Shown piece by piece: positions 3,470 to 27,382 of a stretch of 42,164 bases of DNA. The stretch lies in contig JAFALY010000024.1 of the NCBI GenBank assembly GCA_019233975.1, forward strand, positions 1 through 42,164, given 5' to 3'. Both the position numbers and the translations under genes were made by a program. The notes below the pieces were generated by a model, which had not been told where the DNA came from, ran no database searches, and saw nothing but the letters and a program-made list of their open reading frames with translations. The first letter of the stretch is position 1. Every line of letters begins with the position of its first letter. This DNA is from Alphaproteobacteria bacterium (lineage in GTDB: Bacteria; Pseudomonadota; Alphaproteobacteria; UBA9219).

Positions 3470-5617
3470 ATGGATAATCAGCAGCAATTTTTCAGCATGA
3501 CTGATGTGCGACAGGTTTGGCTTTTTACGCGCCGTAATCTGCGTCACATTGTTGCCGTAACATTGGGCACCATTGTTTTTGCTTTTGTCATGGCACTGGT
3601 CCTGCCTTCGCGATACAAGGGCGAAACGGTTATTATGCTGGACCCGCGTAAGACCAATTTGACCAATCTGACCTCTGTACTGTCTGACATGCCTGCGGAT
3701 AGCTCTGCCATACGCAGTGAAATTGACATTATTACGTCGCGCGCTGTTATTGATCGTGTCATTGAGCAACAGCATTTGATGGAAGACGCCGATTTTAACA
3801 GCAGCCTGAAGGGCATGGGCTGGTTGTTGCGTTTTTTGTCGAGTCACAGCAATGAAGACAAGGCACATCAGGCAGAAGAAGATCGTACAAAGATTGCGGA
3901 GAAACTGTTCAAGCATTTAGAAGCGGAAAATGACGGCCGTTCATACAGTATCAAAATCACGTACTATGATGGAAATGCAGAGCGTGCATCCAACATTGCC
4001 AACGCCTTTGCTGACGAATATTTAAACGATCAGTTAGAAGTTAAGTTTGATGTGGCAAAGCGTGCCAACACTTGGTTGGGCAAGCGATTGGATGAGTTGC
4101 AGACGCAAGTCCGTCAAGCTGAGCATGCTGTAGAAGAGTACAAAACCGCAAATAATCTTGTCGATGTGGGGGATGAAACCCTGACGCAAGAACAGATGAG
4201 CAACATTGATGAGCAACTGGTTGCCGCGCGTGCGGATCTGTCGCAAGCTGAAGCGCGGTTGAACAGCGTCAAGGACGTCAGCGGTTCACGGCTGGCGACT
4301 TCTTCGATGGTGATGGCATCGCCGCTCATTCAGCAGTTGAAGCAACAAGAGGCTGAGGTTCGCCGTAAGGAGGCTGATCTGGCTACGCGGTATGGCGACC
4401 GCCATCCGGCCATGATTGATGTGCGTAATGAATTGCGCAGCATTCAAGACAAGATTGACGAAGAAATGCGCAAATCAATCGCCGTTTTGCGTAATGATTA
4501 TGATATCGCGAAAAGCAAGGTCAGCAGCCTTGAGCAGCAACTTGGCAAACTAAAGGCCGAAGCTGGTGAAGGGAATAAGGCCATGGTCACGCTGCATGAG
4601 TTGCAGCGGCAGGCGAATGCCAACCGCAGCCTGTATGAAGGGTTCCTGGACCGCTTTAAACAGGTTGGCGAACAACAGGATATGCAAATTGCGGATTCTC
4701 GCATTATCGCGCGTGCTAATGTGCCGATTAAGCCGTATTTTCCGAACCTGATCATGTTTTTGGTTGCTGGTGTCGCGCTTGGTATGATCCTGGGGTTCAT
4801 GTCAGCACTGCTGATCGAGTATTTGAACCGTGGCCTGCGGTCGCTTAGTGACGCAGAAAAACTTTATAACGTTCCGGGCCTGGGTATTGTACCGCTTGCA
4901 GACACGGAAGCCGGTCATTTACCGACTGACTACATCATGAAAAAACCGATGTCGATTTTTGCTGAATCCATTCGCTCTGTACGTGCGGCCATTCACTTCT
5001 CAAATGTCGACAAGCCGCCGCGTACCATCGTTATCACCAGCACGATGCCGGGCGAAGGCAAGACGATGTTTTCGACCTCTCTGGCGCGGTTACAGGCCAA
5101 GGCCGGACATAAAGTTATTCTGATCGATGCCGACATGCGCCGCCCGCGTTTGCATAGTATTATGAGCCTCGATAAAACCAAGCCTGATTTGGCAAAATTG
5201 CTGGCGGGCGAAGCCACGCTTGAAGAAGCGCTGCAAAAAGACACCAGCGGTGTTGACGTTATTATTGCCAGCGGCAAAACGACCAATCCACAGGATCTGC
5301 TGACATCGCACCGTATGGAAACGTTGCTGACCCGCCTGGCCGGCGAATACGACATGGTCATTATTGACACGCCGCCAATTCTGGCGGTGGCTGATGCGGC
5401 ATTGGTTGCGCAATCGGCGGATGCGGTTGTCTATATCGCGCGCTGGTCATCCACGCCGCGTGAAGTCATTGGTGAAGGCCTGAAGCAGCTACGTAAGTTC
5501 AATATACGTCTGGCTGGCTTGGTGCTGAACCAGGTTGATCTGGAAGATCGCCGTCAATACGGATATGACGATTATGGCCATTACTATGGCAAATACAAAA
5601 ACTACTACGCCAACTGA
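3470..5617 (+). CDS. Polysaccharide co-polymerase with tyrosine autokinase domain (Wzc-like)
   Basis: This 715-residue inner-membrane protein has an N-terminal Wzz domain (TM1 near residues 25-47, periplasmic coiled-coil-rich segment to about 420, TM2 near 425-450). A cytoplasmic BY-kinase domain follows. Walker A is TMPGEGKT, Walker A' is ILIDADMRRP and Walker B is MVIIDTPP. The last 25 residues hold a tyrosine cluster (YGYDDYGHYYGKYKNYY), the usual autophosphorylation tail. Such proteins control chain length and export of exopolysaccharide together with Wza-type partners, which fits the gene just upstream. The end of the gene overlaps the next reading frame by 32 nt, inside the Tyr-rich tail. 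No glycosyltransferase or Wzy gene is visible near it, so the polymer synthesis genes must lie elsewhere. Confidence 0.93.
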   Translation: MDNQQQFFSMTDVRQVWLFTRRNLRHIVAVTLGTIVFAFVMALVLPSRYKGETVIMLDPRKTNLTNLTSVLSDMPADSSAIRSEIDIITSRAVIDRVIEQQHLMEDADFNSSLKGMGWLLRFLSSHSNEDKAHQAEEDRTKIAEKLFKHLEAENDGRSYSIKITYYDGNAERASNIANAFADEYLNDQLEVKFDVAKRANTWLGKRLDELQTQVRQAEHAVEEYKTANNLVDVGDETLTQEQMSNIDEQLVAARADLSQAEARLNSVKDVSGSRLATSSMVMASPLIQQLKQQEAEVRRKEADLATRYGDRHPAMIDVRNELRSIQDKIDEEMRKSIAVLRNDYDIAKSKVSSLEQQLGKLKAEAGEGNKAMVTLHELQRQANANRSLYEGFLDRFKQVGEQQDMQIADSRIIARANVPIKPYFPNLIMFLVAGVALGMILGFMSALLIEYLNRGLRSLSDAEKLYNVPGLGIVPLADTEAGHLPTDYIMKKPMSIFAESIRSVRAAIHFSNVDKPPRTIVITSTMPGEGKTMFSTSLARLQAKAGHKVILIDADMRRPRLHSIMSLDKTKPDLAKLLAGEATLEEALQKDTSGVDVIIASGKTTNPQDLLTSHRMETLLTRLAGEYDMVIIDTPPILAVADAALVAQSADAVVYIARWSSTPREVIGEGLKQLRKFNIRLAGLVLNQVDLEDRRQYGYDDYGHYYGKYKNYYAN

Positions 5618-6158
5618 GATAAACGTCCGCAGGGCGTGCGCTGCAGCGGCTTTAGTGCTGGCGCTCATGGGGTGCCTGTTTGTTACGCGTCACACTGACG
5701 CGGTAATGAATGGCAACGACATTGTCCATGACGCCATGATTGCTCATCAAGTCGATATGCAATCGGTTTGGGCCTATTCCAATATGCAAACTGAGTTACT
5801 CGCTGCTGACCCTGCCGATATATTTGGCTGGGGCAGGTTGGCGTGGCTGCGGTTCGTACAAGGCAATAAGGTTGATGCGCTTGCTGCCTTGCGGGTTGAA
5901 GATATGTTAAGCCCCATGGAGTCGACGCAGTTGCCGGAGCGTGCTGTTATGTGGCGGTTGCTGCGTGATGTAGAAAAGCCGGATCAGCGCGATTATCAGG
6001 ATAAATTGTGGTTCAAGGCCTACAGCCTGAACCGCGAAGATACATGGCGGTTGGCGCAGGCCAACGGCTGGACGGGCGAGATTGCGGTTGCGCTCGCCAA
6101 ATACTCAAACTCACACTATCAGGAATGGCTGGTGCGCATGCGCGCAGCGCAGCCTTGA
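5586..6158 (+). CDS. Small membrane-anchored protein downstream of the Wzc-like kinase
   Basis: This 190-residue protein has a short polar N-terminus (MANTKTTTPTEINVRR), one transmembrane segment (about residues 19-36) and a predicted periplasmic part of about 150 residues that is helical and Trp/Leu-rich (FGWGRLAWLRFVQGNKVDALAAL). That part recalls a degenerate TPR-like helix pair, but I recognise no family. The chosen ATG lies inside the 3' end of the kinase gene in another frame, giving a 32-nt overlap. An ATG at 5669 would remove most of the membrane anchor. Position and strand make it the last gene of the export operon, so a role in polymer assembly or kinase control is plausible but unproven. 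Confidence 0.68.
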   Translation: MANTKTTTPTEINVRRACAAAALVLALMGCLFVTRHTDAVMNGNDIVHDAMIAHQVDMQSVWAYSNMQTELLAADPADIFGWGRLAWLRFVQGNKVDALAALRVEDMLSPMESTQLPERAVMWRLLRDVEKPDQRDYQDKLWFKAYSLNREDTWRLAQANGWTGEIAVALAKYSNSHYQEWLVRMRAAQP

Positions 6159-6162
6159 CAAG

Positions 6163-7707
6163 TTAGCCCGCCAGCTTCTCATTCAAATAGGTCTGAACCT
6201 GTGACAGGGCAACGCGTTCCTGTTGCGCCGTATCACGGTTGCGGATGGTGACGGTCTGGTCCTTCAGCGTATCACCATCAACAGTGACGCAGAATGGTGT
6301 GCCGGCTTCGTCCATGCGGGCGTATCGCTTGCCGATCGACTGCTTGGCGTCATATTGGCAGATATGCTGTTTGCGCAAATCCTTATAGAGCTTTTCCGCA
6401 ATCTCCGGCATGCCGTCCTTGTTGACCAGCGGGAATATGCCTACTTTTATCGGTGCCAGACTCGGTTTGATCTTCAGCCATTCAGGCGAAGCGCGGCTTT
6501 CGTCGTATTGATAGGATTCGCAAAGCAGGACCAGAACGCCGCGGGTCAAGCCGGCTGCTGGCTCGATAACGTGCGGCACGTAACGGCGGTTCGCTTCCTG
6601 ATCGATATATTCCAAATTGGTGCGGCTATGCTCCTGGTGCTGTTTCAGGTCATAATCGGTGCGGTAGGCGACTCCTTCCAGCTCGCCAAAGCCTGGCGCT
6701 GTGAACGGATACCGGTATTCCAGGTCAGACGTTGCCTTGGAATAATGCGACAACTCGCTTGCTTCAATTTTGTGTTCGTACAGGTTCGCCTTGCTGACGC
6801 CCTGTGCTTCCCACCAGCGCATGCGTTCCTGCACCCAGAATTCGTGCCACATCATGCCGTCTTCGGGTGGCACAAAGAATTCCATTTCCATTTGTTCAAA
6901 TTCACGCGAACGGAAAATGAAATTACGCGGCGTTACTTCGTTGCGGAAGCTCTTGCCAATTTGTGCGATGCCGAAGGGCGGGCGCACGCGTGACGTGTCT
7001 AGAACGTTTTTGTATTGCAGGAAGATACCCTGCGCCGTTTCGGGGCGCAGATACACCTTGCTGTCTTCCGTCTGGAATACGCCGGAATAAGTATGAAACA
7101 TCAAATTGAATGCGCGCGGTTCCGTCAGCGTTCCTGCGTTTTCGGCGTCGGGGCCGATAACTTTGGATTGTTCTGCAGGGCTCAGGCTTGTCAGCGGCGT
7201 TGCTGTTGCAAGATCAAACGGGACAACATCGCCGCCGCCCGCCTTTTGAACCATTTTCTTGGCTTTCTTGGCCAAAATATCCGCCGCATCTTCACCACTC
7301 AGGACTGACAGCATACCAAGAGATTTGCGCTGTCCGGCCTTTTCATAAAAAACTTCAAGGCATAGGATATGGTCCGCGCGGTAACGTCCCTTGGACTCGC
7401 GGCAATCAACCATCAAATCAGCAAATCCCGCCACGTGGCCTGACGCCATCCATGCTTGCGGATGTTGGATGATAGATGTATCGAGACCGACAATCGACAA
7501 CGGGTTGCCATCAGGCCCCAAGGGCGGGCATTCGACCATGTCGCGCCACCACGCATCACGCAGATTGTTTTTCAACTGCGTGCCCAGCGGGCCGTAATCC
7601 CAAAAACCGTTCAGGCCGCCATAAATTTCAGAGGCGGGGTAAACAAAACCGCGGCGCTTGCAGAGTGAAACAAGGCGGCTCATCAGGGATGTTTCGGGCT
7701 GTGCCAT
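6163..7707 (-). CDS. glyS: Glycyl-tRNA synthetase, single-chain dimeric type
   Basis: This 514-residue class II synthetase charges tRNA-Gly. Visible family features are the N-terminal signature GFVYPASEIYGGLNGFWDYGP, motif 2 around GKSFRNEVTPRNFIFRSREF with EQMEMEFF just after it, and a C-terminal anticodon-binding domain (about residues 400-514, starting near LAPIKVGIFPLVNK). This is the alpha2 form known from archaea, eukaryotes and some bacteria, not the alpha2-beta2 GlyQ/GlyS enzyme usual in Proteobacteria. A ribosome binding site (AGAAGG) lies before the ATG. The gene converges on the polysaccharide operon, with 4 nt between the stops. Its only same-strand neighbour is the TPR protein gene upstream, about 104 nt away. 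Confidence 0.95.
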   Translation of the reverse strand: MAQPETSLMSRLVSLCKRRGFVYPASEIYGGLNGFWDYGPLGTQLKNNLRDAWWRDMVECPPLGPDGNPLSIVGLDTSIIQHPQAWMASGHVAGFADLMVDCRESKGRYRADHILCLEVFYEKAGQRKSLGMLSVLSGEDAADILAKKAKKMVQKAGGGDVVPFDLATATPLTSLSPAEQSKVIGPDAENAGTLTEPRAFNLMFHTYSGVFQTEDSKVYLRPETAQGIFLQYKNVLDTSRVRPPFGIAQIGKSFRNEVTPRNFIFRSREFEQMEMEFFVPPEDGMMWHEFWVQERMRWWEAQGVSKANLYEHKIEASELSHYSKATSDLEYRYPFTAPGFGELEGVAYRTDYDLKQHQEHSRTNLEYIDQEANRRYVPHVIEPAAGLTRGVLVLLCESYQYDESRASPEWLKIKPSLAPIKVGIFPLVNKDGMPEIAEKLYKDLRKQHICQYDAKQSIGKRYARMDEAGTPFCVTVDGDTLKDQTVTIRNRDTAQQERVALSQVQTYLNEKLAG

Positions 7708-24978: not shown

Positions 24979-25275
24979 TGTGTCAATGGAGCCTAACTCA
25001 GTTTTTTTTGCAAGTCAGGATTGCTGAAATCTCCTTTCGGGAACGTTATGATGACGCGTTGAGTATTATTTTACATTCAAATAACTTTTTATGGTTGACT
25101 TGGGCATAGTTAAAAATGTAAGTGCAAAAACAAGCGCCATTGTGGCGGCTTTTGAACATGTAGAGACAGAAATGGATAGCCATAGTAGTTATGCCCGTGT
25201 TTGCGGCCTTCTGGCCTCTAAATCCGGGTGTAGTCACATTGCTGAAACTGCTTCCTGCTCAGGGACGGCGAAAAG
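24979..25275. other. Spacer between ppk1 and the Nramp-like gene, upstream part
   Basis: This stretch holds no credible gene. The AT-rich part near 25060-25120 should hold the divergent promoters, but no hexamer pair there matches well (the best for the plus strand is TTGAGT, 17 nt, TAACTT). A 68-codon frame from 25091 has no ribosome binding site and no protein-like composition. The downstream end merges into the structured leader described next. Confidence 0.5.
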
Positions 25276-25346
25276 GGCGAACCGCGGCCTGCGGTAAGCT
25301 TTGGTTCACCGTTCATGCGCCGTGGGGCGTGCGAGGAGGGTGAACG
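25276..25346 (+). promoter_or_regulatory. Candidate translational-control leader with two competing helices
   Basis: GGCGAACC (25276-25283) can pair with GGTTCACC (25303-25310) with one mismatch in eight. The same downstream segment, GTTCACC (25304-25310), can instead pair perfectly over 7 bp with GGTGAAC (25339-25345). That second segment includes the last bases of the Shine-Dalgarno GAGGAGGG (25333-25340) and ends 1 nt before the ATG. The helices are mutually exclusive: the first would leave the ribosome binding site free, the second would mask it. A small local hairpin ACCGC/GCGGT (281-295 of this kilobase) lies inside the first loop. I recognise no Rfam consensus such as yybP-ykoY or M-box. 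Function as a metal or Mg sensor is inference from the transporter gene it precedes. Confidence 0.45.
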
Positions 25347-26975
25347 ATGCACACAGAAAACCAAACAGAAAATACAAATACAGCGGTTTTGGATAAAGCC
25401 CATCTGGGGCACATTCGTGGTGCACTTGGCACAATCCATCAGCATGATGTAGGCCCTCGCCATACATGGCGTGCGCGCCTCAAGACATTATTGGCCGTTC
25501 TTGGTCCTGGCCTGATCGTTATGGTCGGGGATAATGACGCAGGCGCGTTTGCGACCTATTCTCAGGCGGGGCAAAATTATGGCACGGCATTACTGTGGAC
25601 AATGCTGCTGCTTATCCCGGTTTTATACGTAAATCAGGAAATGGTTCTGCGCCTTGGTGCGGTGTCGCGCGTTGGTCATGCCCGACTGATACTTGAACGG
25701 TTTGGTAAGTTCTGGGGCGCCTTCAGTGTGATTGACCTGTTCCTTTTAAACGGCCTGACTATTGTCACAGAATTTATTGGCATCAGTTTGGCGCTAGACT
25801 ATCTGGGACTTTCCAAGGTGTGGGGGATTGCAATTGCAGCCTTGCTGATCATTGTGGCGTCTAGTACGGGTAGTTTTCGTAAATTTGAGCGTTTTTCAAT
25901 GATGTTGGTTGTCGGGAGTTTTCTGCTGGTTCCAATTATTCTGATGGTGCATCCCCCAGTCGGACAAGTCGTGCATGACTTTTTTGTTCCGCAACTGCCG
26001 AAGGAGGGCGAACTGAGCGACATCATGTTGCTTATTATTGCCATCGTCGGGACAACGGTTGCCCCATGGCAGCTGTTTTTCCAGCAGAGCTATGTCATTG
26101 ACAAGCGACTAACGTCGCGCTTCATCAATTATGAACGTATCGATCTGGTCATCGGCATAATTTTAGTCATCATCGGGGCTGTGGCCATGATTGCGTTCTG
26201 CGCAGCAACTTTTGGGGGTACGCCTGATTTCGGTAAATTTATAGATGCAGGGGGCGTTGCCGCTGGGCTGCAGAAATATGCGGGCCATATTCCAGCTGTA
26301 TTGTTTGCGCTGGCTCTGATCGACGCCAGCATCATCGGGGCCGCATCTGTGTCCTTATCAACAGCTTACGCAATTGGCGATGTGTTGTCACTCAAGCACT
26401 CCTTGCATCATAAGCCCAAGCACGCAAAATGGTTTTATGCCATTTATGCCGGATTAATTGCAGTATCGGCGGCTATTGTGTTGATACCAGGCAGCCCACT
26501 TGGATTGCTTACGGAAGCGGTGCAAACCTTGGCCGGTATATTGTTGCCGAGCGCGACCGTGTTTCTGCTTCTACTGTGCAATGATCATGCCGTGCTTGGC
26601 CCCTGGGTAAATTCTCGGTGGCTTAACATATTCACGAGCGGTGTAATCGCTGTTCTTGTTATGATGTCAGTTATTCTGACGGCTTCGGTTTTGTACCCCA
26701 ATATGGGAAGCAATGTCATAATCGGCATTCTAGTCGGAGGTATTGCGGTTACCGTTCTATTAACAATCGTGACGCTCGTTGTTAACCGCAAAAGTAAAAT
26801 GACAGTCGTTGACCGTTCGCAACAACTCACTTGGCAAATGCCGCCGTTAAATGAACTGGCGCCGATGCAACTGAGTCAGATGAGCCGTCTTTGGATGATC
26901 GTGTTGCGTGTATATCTGGTGGGAGCCTGCGGCCTGATGATCGTGCGCGTTGTTCAGATGGCGATGGAGCGCTGA
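25347..26975 (+). CDS. Nramp (SLC11)-related divalent cation transporter with atypical metal site
   Basis: This 542-residue inner-membrane protein has about 11-12 transmembrane helices after a His-containing cytoplasmic N-terminus. The Nramp fold is shown by GPGLIVMVGDNDAGAFATY in TM1 and by IVGTTVAPWQLFFQQS in TM6. In standard Mn/Fe Nramps these read DPGN and MPHN. Here they are D64-A-G-A67 and A239-P-W-Q242, so the Asn of TM1 and the soft-metal Met and the His of TM6 are replaced. Loss of the Met is a feature of the Nramp-related Mg2+ transporter (NRMT) branch, so Mg2+ is a better guess than Mn2+ or Fe2+. The ATG at 25347 follows GAGGAGGG. A small membrane-protein gene follows after 59 nt. 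Confidence 0.87.
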   Translation: MHTENQTENTNTAVLDKAHLGHIRGALGTIHQHDVGPRHTWRARLKTLLAVLGPGLIVMVGDNDAGAFATYSQAGQNYGTALLWTMLLLIPVLYVNQEMVLRLGAVSRVGHARLILERFGKFWGAFSVIDLFLLNGLTIVTEFIGISLALDYLGLSKVWGIAIAALLIIVASSTGSFRKFERFSMMLVVGSFLLVPIILMVHPPVGQVVHDFFVPQLPKEGELSDIMLLIIAIVGTTVAPWQLFFQQSYVIDKRLTSRFINYERIDLVIGIILVIIGAVAMIAFCAATFGGTPDFGKFIDAGGVAAGLQKYAGHIPAVLFALALIDASIIGAASVSLSTAYAIGDVLSLKHSLHHKPKHAKWFYAIYAGLIAVSAAIVLIPGSPLGLLTEAVQTLAGILLPSATVFLLLLCNDHAVLGPWVNSRWLNIFTSGVIAVLVMMSVILTASVLYPNMGSNVIIGILVGGIAVTVLLTIVTLVVNRKSKMTVVDRSQQLTWQMPPLNELAPMQLSQMSRLWMIVLRVYLVGACGLMIVRVVQMAMER

Positions 26976-27034: not shown

Positions 27035-27382
27035 ATGCATTACGAACATTTTTCTCAGCCCTTGCTGGATCGCAAACATTGGCTGGGACGGGTGACAAAA
27101 TCATTCGCAGCAGCTCTTTTATTTGCAGCCTTCTCGTTGTCGGTCGGGATAATGGGCTACCACTATATGGGCGGCCTCGCATGGGTGGACTCGTTGCTCG
27201 AGGCCTCCATGATCCTCGGGGGTATGGGGCCGGTTGCGACTATGCAAAACGACACCATCAAGGTATTTGCTTCAATCTATGCGCTTTATAGCGGGTTGTT
27301 TATGATTGGGGCAACGGGGCTCATTCTGGCGCCATGGCTACACCGCATGCTGCACATTTTCCATCTGCCCAAGGAAGATTGA
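27035..27382 (+). CDS. Small three-helix membrane protein downstream of the transporter
   Basis: This 115-residue protein has an ATG at 27035 after GGGGAGGA. Three hydrophobic segments are seen (about residues 22-44, 50-65 with LLEASMILGGMGPV, and 78-103 with IYALYSGLFMIGATGLILAP), followed by a short basic tail (HRMLHIFHLPKED). The central GGMGP segment between two helices is reminiscent of a pore loop of small two-helix ion-channel-like proteins, but no K+ selectivity motif (TVGYG) is present. I do not know a named family. Same strand and 59-nt spacing suggest it is co-expressed with the Nramp-like gene. Confidence 0.78.
   Translation: MHYEHFSQPLLDRKHWLGRVTKSFAAALLFAAFSLSVGIMGYHYMGGLAWVDSLLEASMILGGMGPVATMQNDTIKVFASIYALYSGLFMIGATGLILAPWLHRMLHIFHLPKED

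Follow-up and report, generated by a model that had tools for sequence, protein, structure and literature searches.

A candidate leader-peptide attenuator with alternative hairpins before an NRMT-like transporter gene of an alphaproteobacterium

What controls translation of an Nramp-family transporter gene whose ribosome binding site can be folded into a hairpin? This question is raised by a stretch of alphaproteobacterial DNA of 42,164 nucleotides (the window; contig JAFALY010000024.1), in which the gene at 25347..26975 (+) encodes a 542-aa protein of the Nramp family (Pfam Nramp, E 9.7e-80). The original prediction, made from the sequence alone, held that one segment before this gene can pair either upstream or downstream, that the downstream pairing masks the Shine-Dalgarno sequence, and that this follows the logic of a translational riboswitch or a protein-controlled leader. 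The Shine-Dalgarno sequence AGGAGG lies at 25334..25339 (+). The downstream helix with seven of seven pairs was present, with its 5' strand at 25304-25310 and not, as first placed, from 25303, and its 3' strand at 25339-25345. This helix overlaps AGGAGG only at the last base, on the 3' strand. The full masking hairpin (25304..25345, +) adds the stems 25312-25314/25335-25337 and 25316-25321/25326-25331, so that 25335-25337 and 25339 of the Shine-Dalgarno sequence are paired, and the mean Shine-Dalgarno pairing probability in the window was 0.65-0.72 across four folding contexts. The downstream helix alone arose with such geometry in 218 of 5000 dinucleotide shuffles. The upstream and downstream helices arose jointly, with the same geometry, in only 8 of 5000, and the two-helix pattern is therefore unusual. 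A 52-nt hairpin region was also more stable than its shuffles (z -2.99, 2/200). The whole 116-nt region was not unusually stable (z -0.74, 47/200 shuffles), and a static reading based on the folding energy of this entire region was dropped.

We then considered the alternative to masking. The upstream pairing of the original prediction exists as 7 of 8 complementary positions between 25276..25283 (GGCGAACC, +) and 25303-25310 (GGTTCACC), but it is a poor alternative, as its ensemble probability was 0.00 and enforcing the helix gave -29.7 versus -38.8 kcal/mol, a cost of ~9 kcal/mol. Mutually exclusive helices before the gene were nevertheless confirmed, because a longer competing (antisequestor) hairpin at 25263..25314 (+) excludes the masking hairpin. 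In the window fold, its stems are 25263-25268/25309-25314, 25270-25272/25305-25307, 25274-25278/25298-25302, and 25281-25285/25291-25295. For all transcript ends tried between 25314 and 25344, the competing hairpin had the lowest predicted energy, and on the segment 25255-25349 the competing and masking states tied at -38.8 kcal/mol each. The value for the competing state counts pairing of 25255-25260 to the Shine-Dalgarno zone, and with 25325-25349 held open it was -29.6 kcal/mol.

No known riboswitch was recognized in this leader. Rfam gave no match at the gathering score in the window leader, and relaxing the search to E 10 over 25000-25400 gave three matches only, to 6S-Flavo, S15, and a microRNA model (E 0.68-8.1), which were rejected as chance-level matches far under gathering scores that include no metal riboswitch. 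Neither the yybP-ykoY Mn2+ riboswitch nor any other Rfam cis-regulator matched the window leader. The M-box (RF00380) was not detected at the gathering score in the window or in the window's genome, nor up to E 10 in 25000-25400. The earlier remark that the consensus of the known Mn and Mg riboswitches is absent agrees with these scans.

The leader does contain an open reading frame (ORF) that the original prediction did not mention and that ends inside the hairpin switch; its stop codon is held within the competing hairpin. This leader ORF (25172..25297, +; MDSHSSYARVCGLLASKSGCSHIAETASCSGTAKRANRGLR) has 41 codons followed by the stop TAA at 25295-25297, and it starts at -175 and stops at -52 from the transporter. 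Dinucleotide shuffling of the window leader gave an ORF with the same motif, start zone, and stop zone in 9 of 20000 cases. The ORF is preceded by AGAGA (25162..25166, +), a weak Shine-Dalgarno-like sequence; most relatives carry the stronger GGAG, and the sequence is similarly weak at loci L011 and L120-L122. Alignments and the codon table identified the peptide start, ATG-GAT-AGC-CAT-AGT-AGT-TAT (25172..25192, +), as the counterpart of MNDGPSR and MNDCHSR in relatives, shorter by one codon. The window peptide (MDSHSSYARV...) carries a single acidic residue close to its beginning, Asp2, and no proline. By eye, MDSHSS is nearest to MNDCHSR (L166) and to MSESHSP (L079), which has a GTG start and lies behind an M-box.

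Well in excess of chance, related leader ORFs precede the transporters of this clade in both Proteobacteria and Actinobacteria. The starts that recur among the first 80 homologues are MNDGPSR, MDEGPSC, MDPYPSS, MDPSSSR, MEPGPST, MNPRPSS, MDTCSSR, MDSPSRP, MEPGSSC, and MNPGHSC, and the leader ORFs of relatives are mostly preceded by a Shine-Dalgarno sequence. The ORF pattern was fixed on L001-L080 and then applied to 40 loci that were new against, and non-redundant with, that set. Twelve of the 40 matched, compared with 0.45 in shuffles (sd 0.59, max 2), and as controls the reverse strand of these loci gave 0 matches and the gene interior 1. The first set itself had 28 matches among 74 loci, with 1.1 expected. 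An earlier held-out count of 23/59 was set aside because genomes were shared with the training set, and is superseded by 12/40. Among other Nramp homologues, a related ORF pattern was found in 0 of 20. The alphaproteobacterial variants MNPGPTRPAG, MNDGPTRL, MEEDPKWPAG, and MNDGPRCPAC escape the pattern. Searching 11 genomes for the exact DNA of the MNDGPS motif gave a single occurrence in each of 6, and none for the reversed control. Searching three further groups for leaders brought a small gain. No published account of such an ORF before an Nramp-type gene was found in the literature searched, which was thin in subscription journals.

To compare codons and RNA folding, we used direct leaders only; loci with other layouts, such as those with a small gene separating leader and transporter, those of most Beta- and Gammaproteobacteria, and those of Actinobacteria, were excluded from the RNA tests. 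Limits on start, stop, and length kept 25 distinct leaders out of 42. Removal of two near-duplicates left 23 for an earlier swap test with fixed segments, and addition of the variants gave 35, of which 28 under 80% identity were used for the swap tests and the codon table. In these 28 leaders, the start codon was ATG in 16 and TTG in 12, and the stop codon was TGA in 15, TAG in 8, and TAA in 5. Codon 3 was acidic in 26 of 28 rows, with the window aligned by a one-codon gap. Proline occupied codon 5 in 24/28, and all four proline codons were used. At codon 6, Thr (ACC or ACT) replaced the AGT-encoded Ser in 2/28, and codon 7 was mostly arginine, written as AGG, AGA, CGC, or CGG. Since codon choices vary while the peptide pattern stays, the sequences suggest that the conserved element is an ORF, beyond RNA alone. 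Counted from the transporter start, the ORF stop lay between -39 and -60 in 27/28 leaders and at -81 in one, a range partly set by the selection limits (-65..-30 for the first set, -95..-25 for the later set), and the leader ORFs of relatives were 24-42 codons long. The start, length, and stop of the window ORF, including its stop at -52, fall inside the range of the relatives.

Immediately 3' of the conserved codons, the window RNA is predicted to form a hairpin, H0 (25190..25232, +), with the stem 25190-25197/25225-25232 and inner stems. H0 of the window was far more stable than its shuffles (z -4.90, 0/200). In 25 leaders including the window, 9/9 predicted pairs showed pair-keeping changes on both sides; this covarying H0 after the conserved codons was seen in Alphaproteobacteria. 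The H0 of the window has a longer loop, and its 3' arm could not be aligned with those of relatives. A covariance model of the start region and H0, built from 27 relatives with the window excluded, recovered homologues outside its training, among them L080, L020, L006, L023, and L002. The same model did not find the window leader and had no match in the window's genome. The window leader is thus divergent and is overlooked by a model of its relatives. We also noted a Rhizobiales-2 RNA (RF01723) upstream of the transporter at three Bradyrhizobium loci (L007 1758-1855, L006 993-1078, and L023 1493-1574).

The strong covariation of H0 and the near-invariant adjoining bases (AGT.G) would fit a metal-binding riboswitch, in which the masking hairpin is governed by an aptamer made of H0 and its conserved neighbors, and translation of the leader is irrelevant. 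We regard this as very unlikely, because these adjoining bases make up codons of an ORF whose start is always ATG, TTG, or GTG, and the base changes seen keep the reading (four proline codons, four arginine codons, Ser to Thr). In addition, no Rfam family was found on the scanned leaders except the M-box in three Actinobacteria, and the window retains the codon pattern and not the RNA consensus. An aptamer or a protein as the sensor is not supported; the conserved signal in relatives is a short ORF. As this short ORF ends just before the masking hairpin, the sensor would most simply be the translating ribosome.

Next, we asked which of the two alternative hairpins recurs in relatives. In 25 leaders, the RNA from the leader stop to the transporter start was more stable than shuffles (mean z -2.17), with a mean Shine-Dalgarno pairing of 0.71. 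In the swap test, in which a segment of one leader is paired with a segment of another and fixed segments are used, the post-stop segment favored the Shine-Dalgarno region of the leader it came from (z -5.6, p<0.0001, 28 leaders). The arms of the masking-hairpin counterparts have diverged yet match themselves. These results show by sequence comparison that the predicted masking hairpin is present in relatives, and they support the earlier claim that the Shine-Dalgarno sequence before this Nramp-family gene is masked.

The results for the competing helix in relatives were mixed, with two tests for it, one borderline, and three null. The post-stop segment favored the ORF end of the same leader (z -5.8, p<0.0001, 28 leaders), and pairing of the masking arm with its own ORF end was 0.59 versus 0.46 after swapping (p 0.0005). 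An earlier version of the swap with fixed segments was borderline (p 0.0055 among 28 tests, 23 leaders). Compared with shuffled upstream sequence, the arm-pairing probability gave the antisequestor no general support (mean z +0.42), nor did the cost of opening the Shine-Dalgarno sequence (mean z -0.14). A swap with narrow segments gave p 0.26 and 0.045; this row is biased, since its masking arm was picked by folding, and was replaced by the fixed segments. The ORF end and the Shine-Dalgarno region showed no mutual preference in the swap test (p 0.34, 28 leaders). Conservation of the competing hairpin in relatives is therefore likely, with results on both sides. Of the pairings originally proposed, the masking one is supported in relatives; the exact upstream partner 25276-25283 is not supported.

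We next examined which ion the transporter may carry. The solved structure nearest to the 542-aa protein was that of Eggerthella lenta NRMT (EleNRMT, 7qia) with 178.4 bits, and the second scored 82.7 (phmmer); the protein is thus closer to NRMT structures than to canonical Nramp. EleNRMT is described as a Mg2+/Mn2+ transporter, and the metal-site motifs of NRMT as DxxG and TxxA/T (PMC8806188). Helix 6 of the window protein reads TTVA-PW, which agrees with the TxxA/T that replaces A/CxxM in NRMT, and TxxA-PW was matched in 147/154 homologues. The helix-1 motif DxxG was absent, as D-A-G-A of the window aligned to D-A-G-G of 7qia, and the protein is therefore named NRMT-like only. Both Mg2+ and Mn2+ substrates occur within NrmT, and the NrmT of A. 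capsulatum is reported to carry mainly Mn2+ (PMC4072509). Because the motifs of the window are mixed (TTVA is NRMT-like, D-A-G-A is not), both metals are possible substrates, as judged from these residues. Just 3' of the transporter gene, at 27038-27382, lies a 114-aa ORF that is membrane-protein-like and has no Pfam or NCBIfam match.

Homologues of the clade with 61-74% identity were scattered over Proteobacteria and Actinobacteria. No clade member was found in the window's own family and order, where the Nramps matched were others with 26-39% identity; since none of the close relatives searched has the gene, it may have been acquired recently. This absence, together with the weak Shine-Dalgarno sequence of the leader ORF and the failure of the covariance model to find the window leader, would fit an ORF that is a relic or a chance occurrence, with the gene under a static Shine-Dalgarno hairpin alone that lowers translation. 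Given the rarity of such an ORF in shuffles, its start, length, and stop within the range of relatives, and the strong H0 of the window, such an origin appears unlikely.

The link to Mg2+ was approached through the M-box, as NRMT-type carriers are tied to Mg2+ by M-box riboswitches, mostly in Clostridia and Deltaproteobacteria, and an M-box precedes nrmT (PMC4072509). Rfam was run on 60 homologous loci and the window. An M-box was present at the transporter in 3 of the 5 actinobacterial loci (L055, L066, and L079) and in 0 of the 55 others. At these three loci no other long gene was seen separating the upstream M-box from the transporter, and the stretch between the two carries a candidate leader ORF each time (MEPGSSC..., MSESHSPR..., and MNDGHKPS...); the one of L066, MNDGHKPS..., was recognized by eye inside a longer ORF of the listing, in the same frame. 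The two remaining loci, L053 and L065, have a leader ORF without an M-box at the locus. In mycobacteria, an M-box occurs with a conserved upstream ORF that has a conserved early proline (PMC12810186), which we set beside the present leaders by its description and not by sequence. We also observed an M-box (139.6 bits) in the Chromobacterium genome of L044 (G1189, C18 44910-45074), away from the transporter locus.

Sequence comparison and folding establish the ORF start shared by relatives, the hairpins (H0 and the masking one), where the stop codon lies, and two folds of equal energy in the window. From these we infer translation of the ORF, Mg2+ as the signal, sensing by early drop-off, and the sign of the transporter response given here. 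A ribosome would initiate the 41-codon ORF at 25172, and the first codons with the stable H0 directly behind them would form an early checkpoint. A full run to the stop at 25295-25297 would melt 25263-25285, which forms the 5' strand of the competing hairpin, so that 25304-25314 could pair to the Shine-Dalgarno region and the transporter would be turned off. An early stall or drop-off, as on MgtL and MgtQ at low Mg2+, would let the competing hairpin form first; this hairpin would hold 25305-25314, expose the Shine-Dalgarno sequence, and turn the transporter on. We put the probability that the window leader is such a translation-acting leader-peptide attenuator of the MgtL/MgtQ kind, in which Mg2+ is read through ribosome progress, at roughly 55%, because the covariance model misses the window, the peptide has no proline, and the Shine-Dalgarno sequence of the ORF is weak. 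The leader-ORF class itself stands on firmer ground. Against the attenuator also speak the DxxA-TxxA metal site, together with the one NrmT that carries mainly Mn2+, the three null tests of the competing hairpin in relatives, and its weaker energy of -29.6 kcal/mol with 25325-25349 held open. Moreover, a ribosome paused at the stop would be expected to cover a portion of the masking arm, and the sign of the response would then be the opposite.

This opposite sign would result from translational coupling, in which a ribosome finishing or pausing at the stop covers 25300-25310, opens the Shine-Dalgarno sequence, and turns the transporter on, while early drop-off turns it off. The masking helix of the window starts 7 nt past the stop codon, and when the bases to 25307 were covered, 25334-25339 were largely open in the fold of the remaining RNA. 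Coupling would also fit the stop at 39-60 nt before the transporter start in 27/28 leaders and the lack of clear conservation of the competing helix in three null tests. A terminating ribosome reaches ~10 nt. Across 25 leaders, the distance from the stop to the masking arm was 1 to 31 nt, often past this reach, and a Mg2+ importer would drop at low Mg2+ if the early codons cause drop-off. For these reasons we consider coupling a rather doubtful explanation of the window.

The preferred attenuator resembles known systems in several respects. In the erm and trp leader-peptide attenuators, the position of a ribosome on a short ORF picks one of two exclusive hairpins; the window would share exclusive hairpins chosen by ribosome position, and differs in that signal and peptide are unrelated. 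The Salmonella mgtQ, located before mgtB, is described as a short ORF with Asp2 and Glu5 that selects between exclusive hairpins hiding or freeing the mgtB ribosome site (PMC8092293). In layout and parts, rather than by sequence comparison, it is similar to the window leader, with a short ORF, an acidic position 2, and, by prediction in the window, alternative hairpins of which one would hide the Shine-Dalgarno sequence of a known or candidate Mg2+ transporter. However, mgtQ as described there has 8 codons and precedes a P-type ATPase gene, whereas the window leader has 41 codons, its own H0, and an Nramp-type carrier. On mgtL, ribosomes are reported to drop off at EPDP when Mg2+ is low (PMC11282234). 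Its acidic and proline-containing start resembles MNPGPT, MDPSPS, and MEPGPS of the relatives, and Mg2+ shortage would likewise be sensed through ribosome progress. By contrast, the output of mgtL in that account is Rho-dependent termination, here it would be a Shine-Dalgarno hairpin, and the window peptide has no proline. The M-box (ykoK, RF00380) shares with the present leaders its place before the same transporter clade, with a candidate leader ORF, at the three actinobacterial loci, but it is missing from the window, its genome, and the 55 non-actinobacterial loci scanned.

A broader and tentative reading, to which we give somewhat less than even odds, is that these leaders form a class of leader peptides that sense Mg2+, widespread and so far undescribed (approximately M-[D/E/N]-x-x-[P/H/S]-[S/T]-[R/S/C] plus a hairpin) before NRMT-type transporters. 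This class would replace the M-box in Alpha-, Beta-, and Gammaproteobacteria and stand behind it in Actinobacteria, and copies before other genes close to the transporter, such as a porin-like one, would mark a small Mg2+ regulon. If so, Mg2+ would be read by an RNA aptamer and by ribosome progress, two sensors that are unrelated yet substitute for each other and sometimes act in series, and a short peptide motif for Mg2+-sensitive translation would be at hand outside enterobacteria. A conserved leader peptide would also bear on how the NRMT clade is controlled in bacteria without an M-box.

Further leader copies were observed outside the transporter leaders. In L002, a similar leader ORF at 4668-4769 (MDEHPSRPAVAASG...) follows the transporter gene and precedes an ORF at 4818-6875 that encodes 685 aa, a putative outer-membrane porin-like protein by reading of its sequence. 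Downstream of the transporter in L001, a leader ORF is present at 4639-4746 (MEDCPSPADGAEA...), and the G502 genome has a second leader copy at another site, close to the end of a contig (L213 1515-1628, MNEGPSRPTGALSD...). In addition, a small ORF of about 50-120 aa with the motif W..G..C.W adjoins the leader in 44/154 loci, for example at -410..-176 (L016), -356..-149 (L011), and -412..-178 (L149) from the transporter start. Two of three examples had no Pfam match up to E 1 and the third a weak one only, and NCBIfam matched 0 of the 2 searched. By eye, the start of this ORF often follows a CCTCC...GGAGG hairpin, and in L016, L151, and L152 an additional leader, MGSS..., precedes it.
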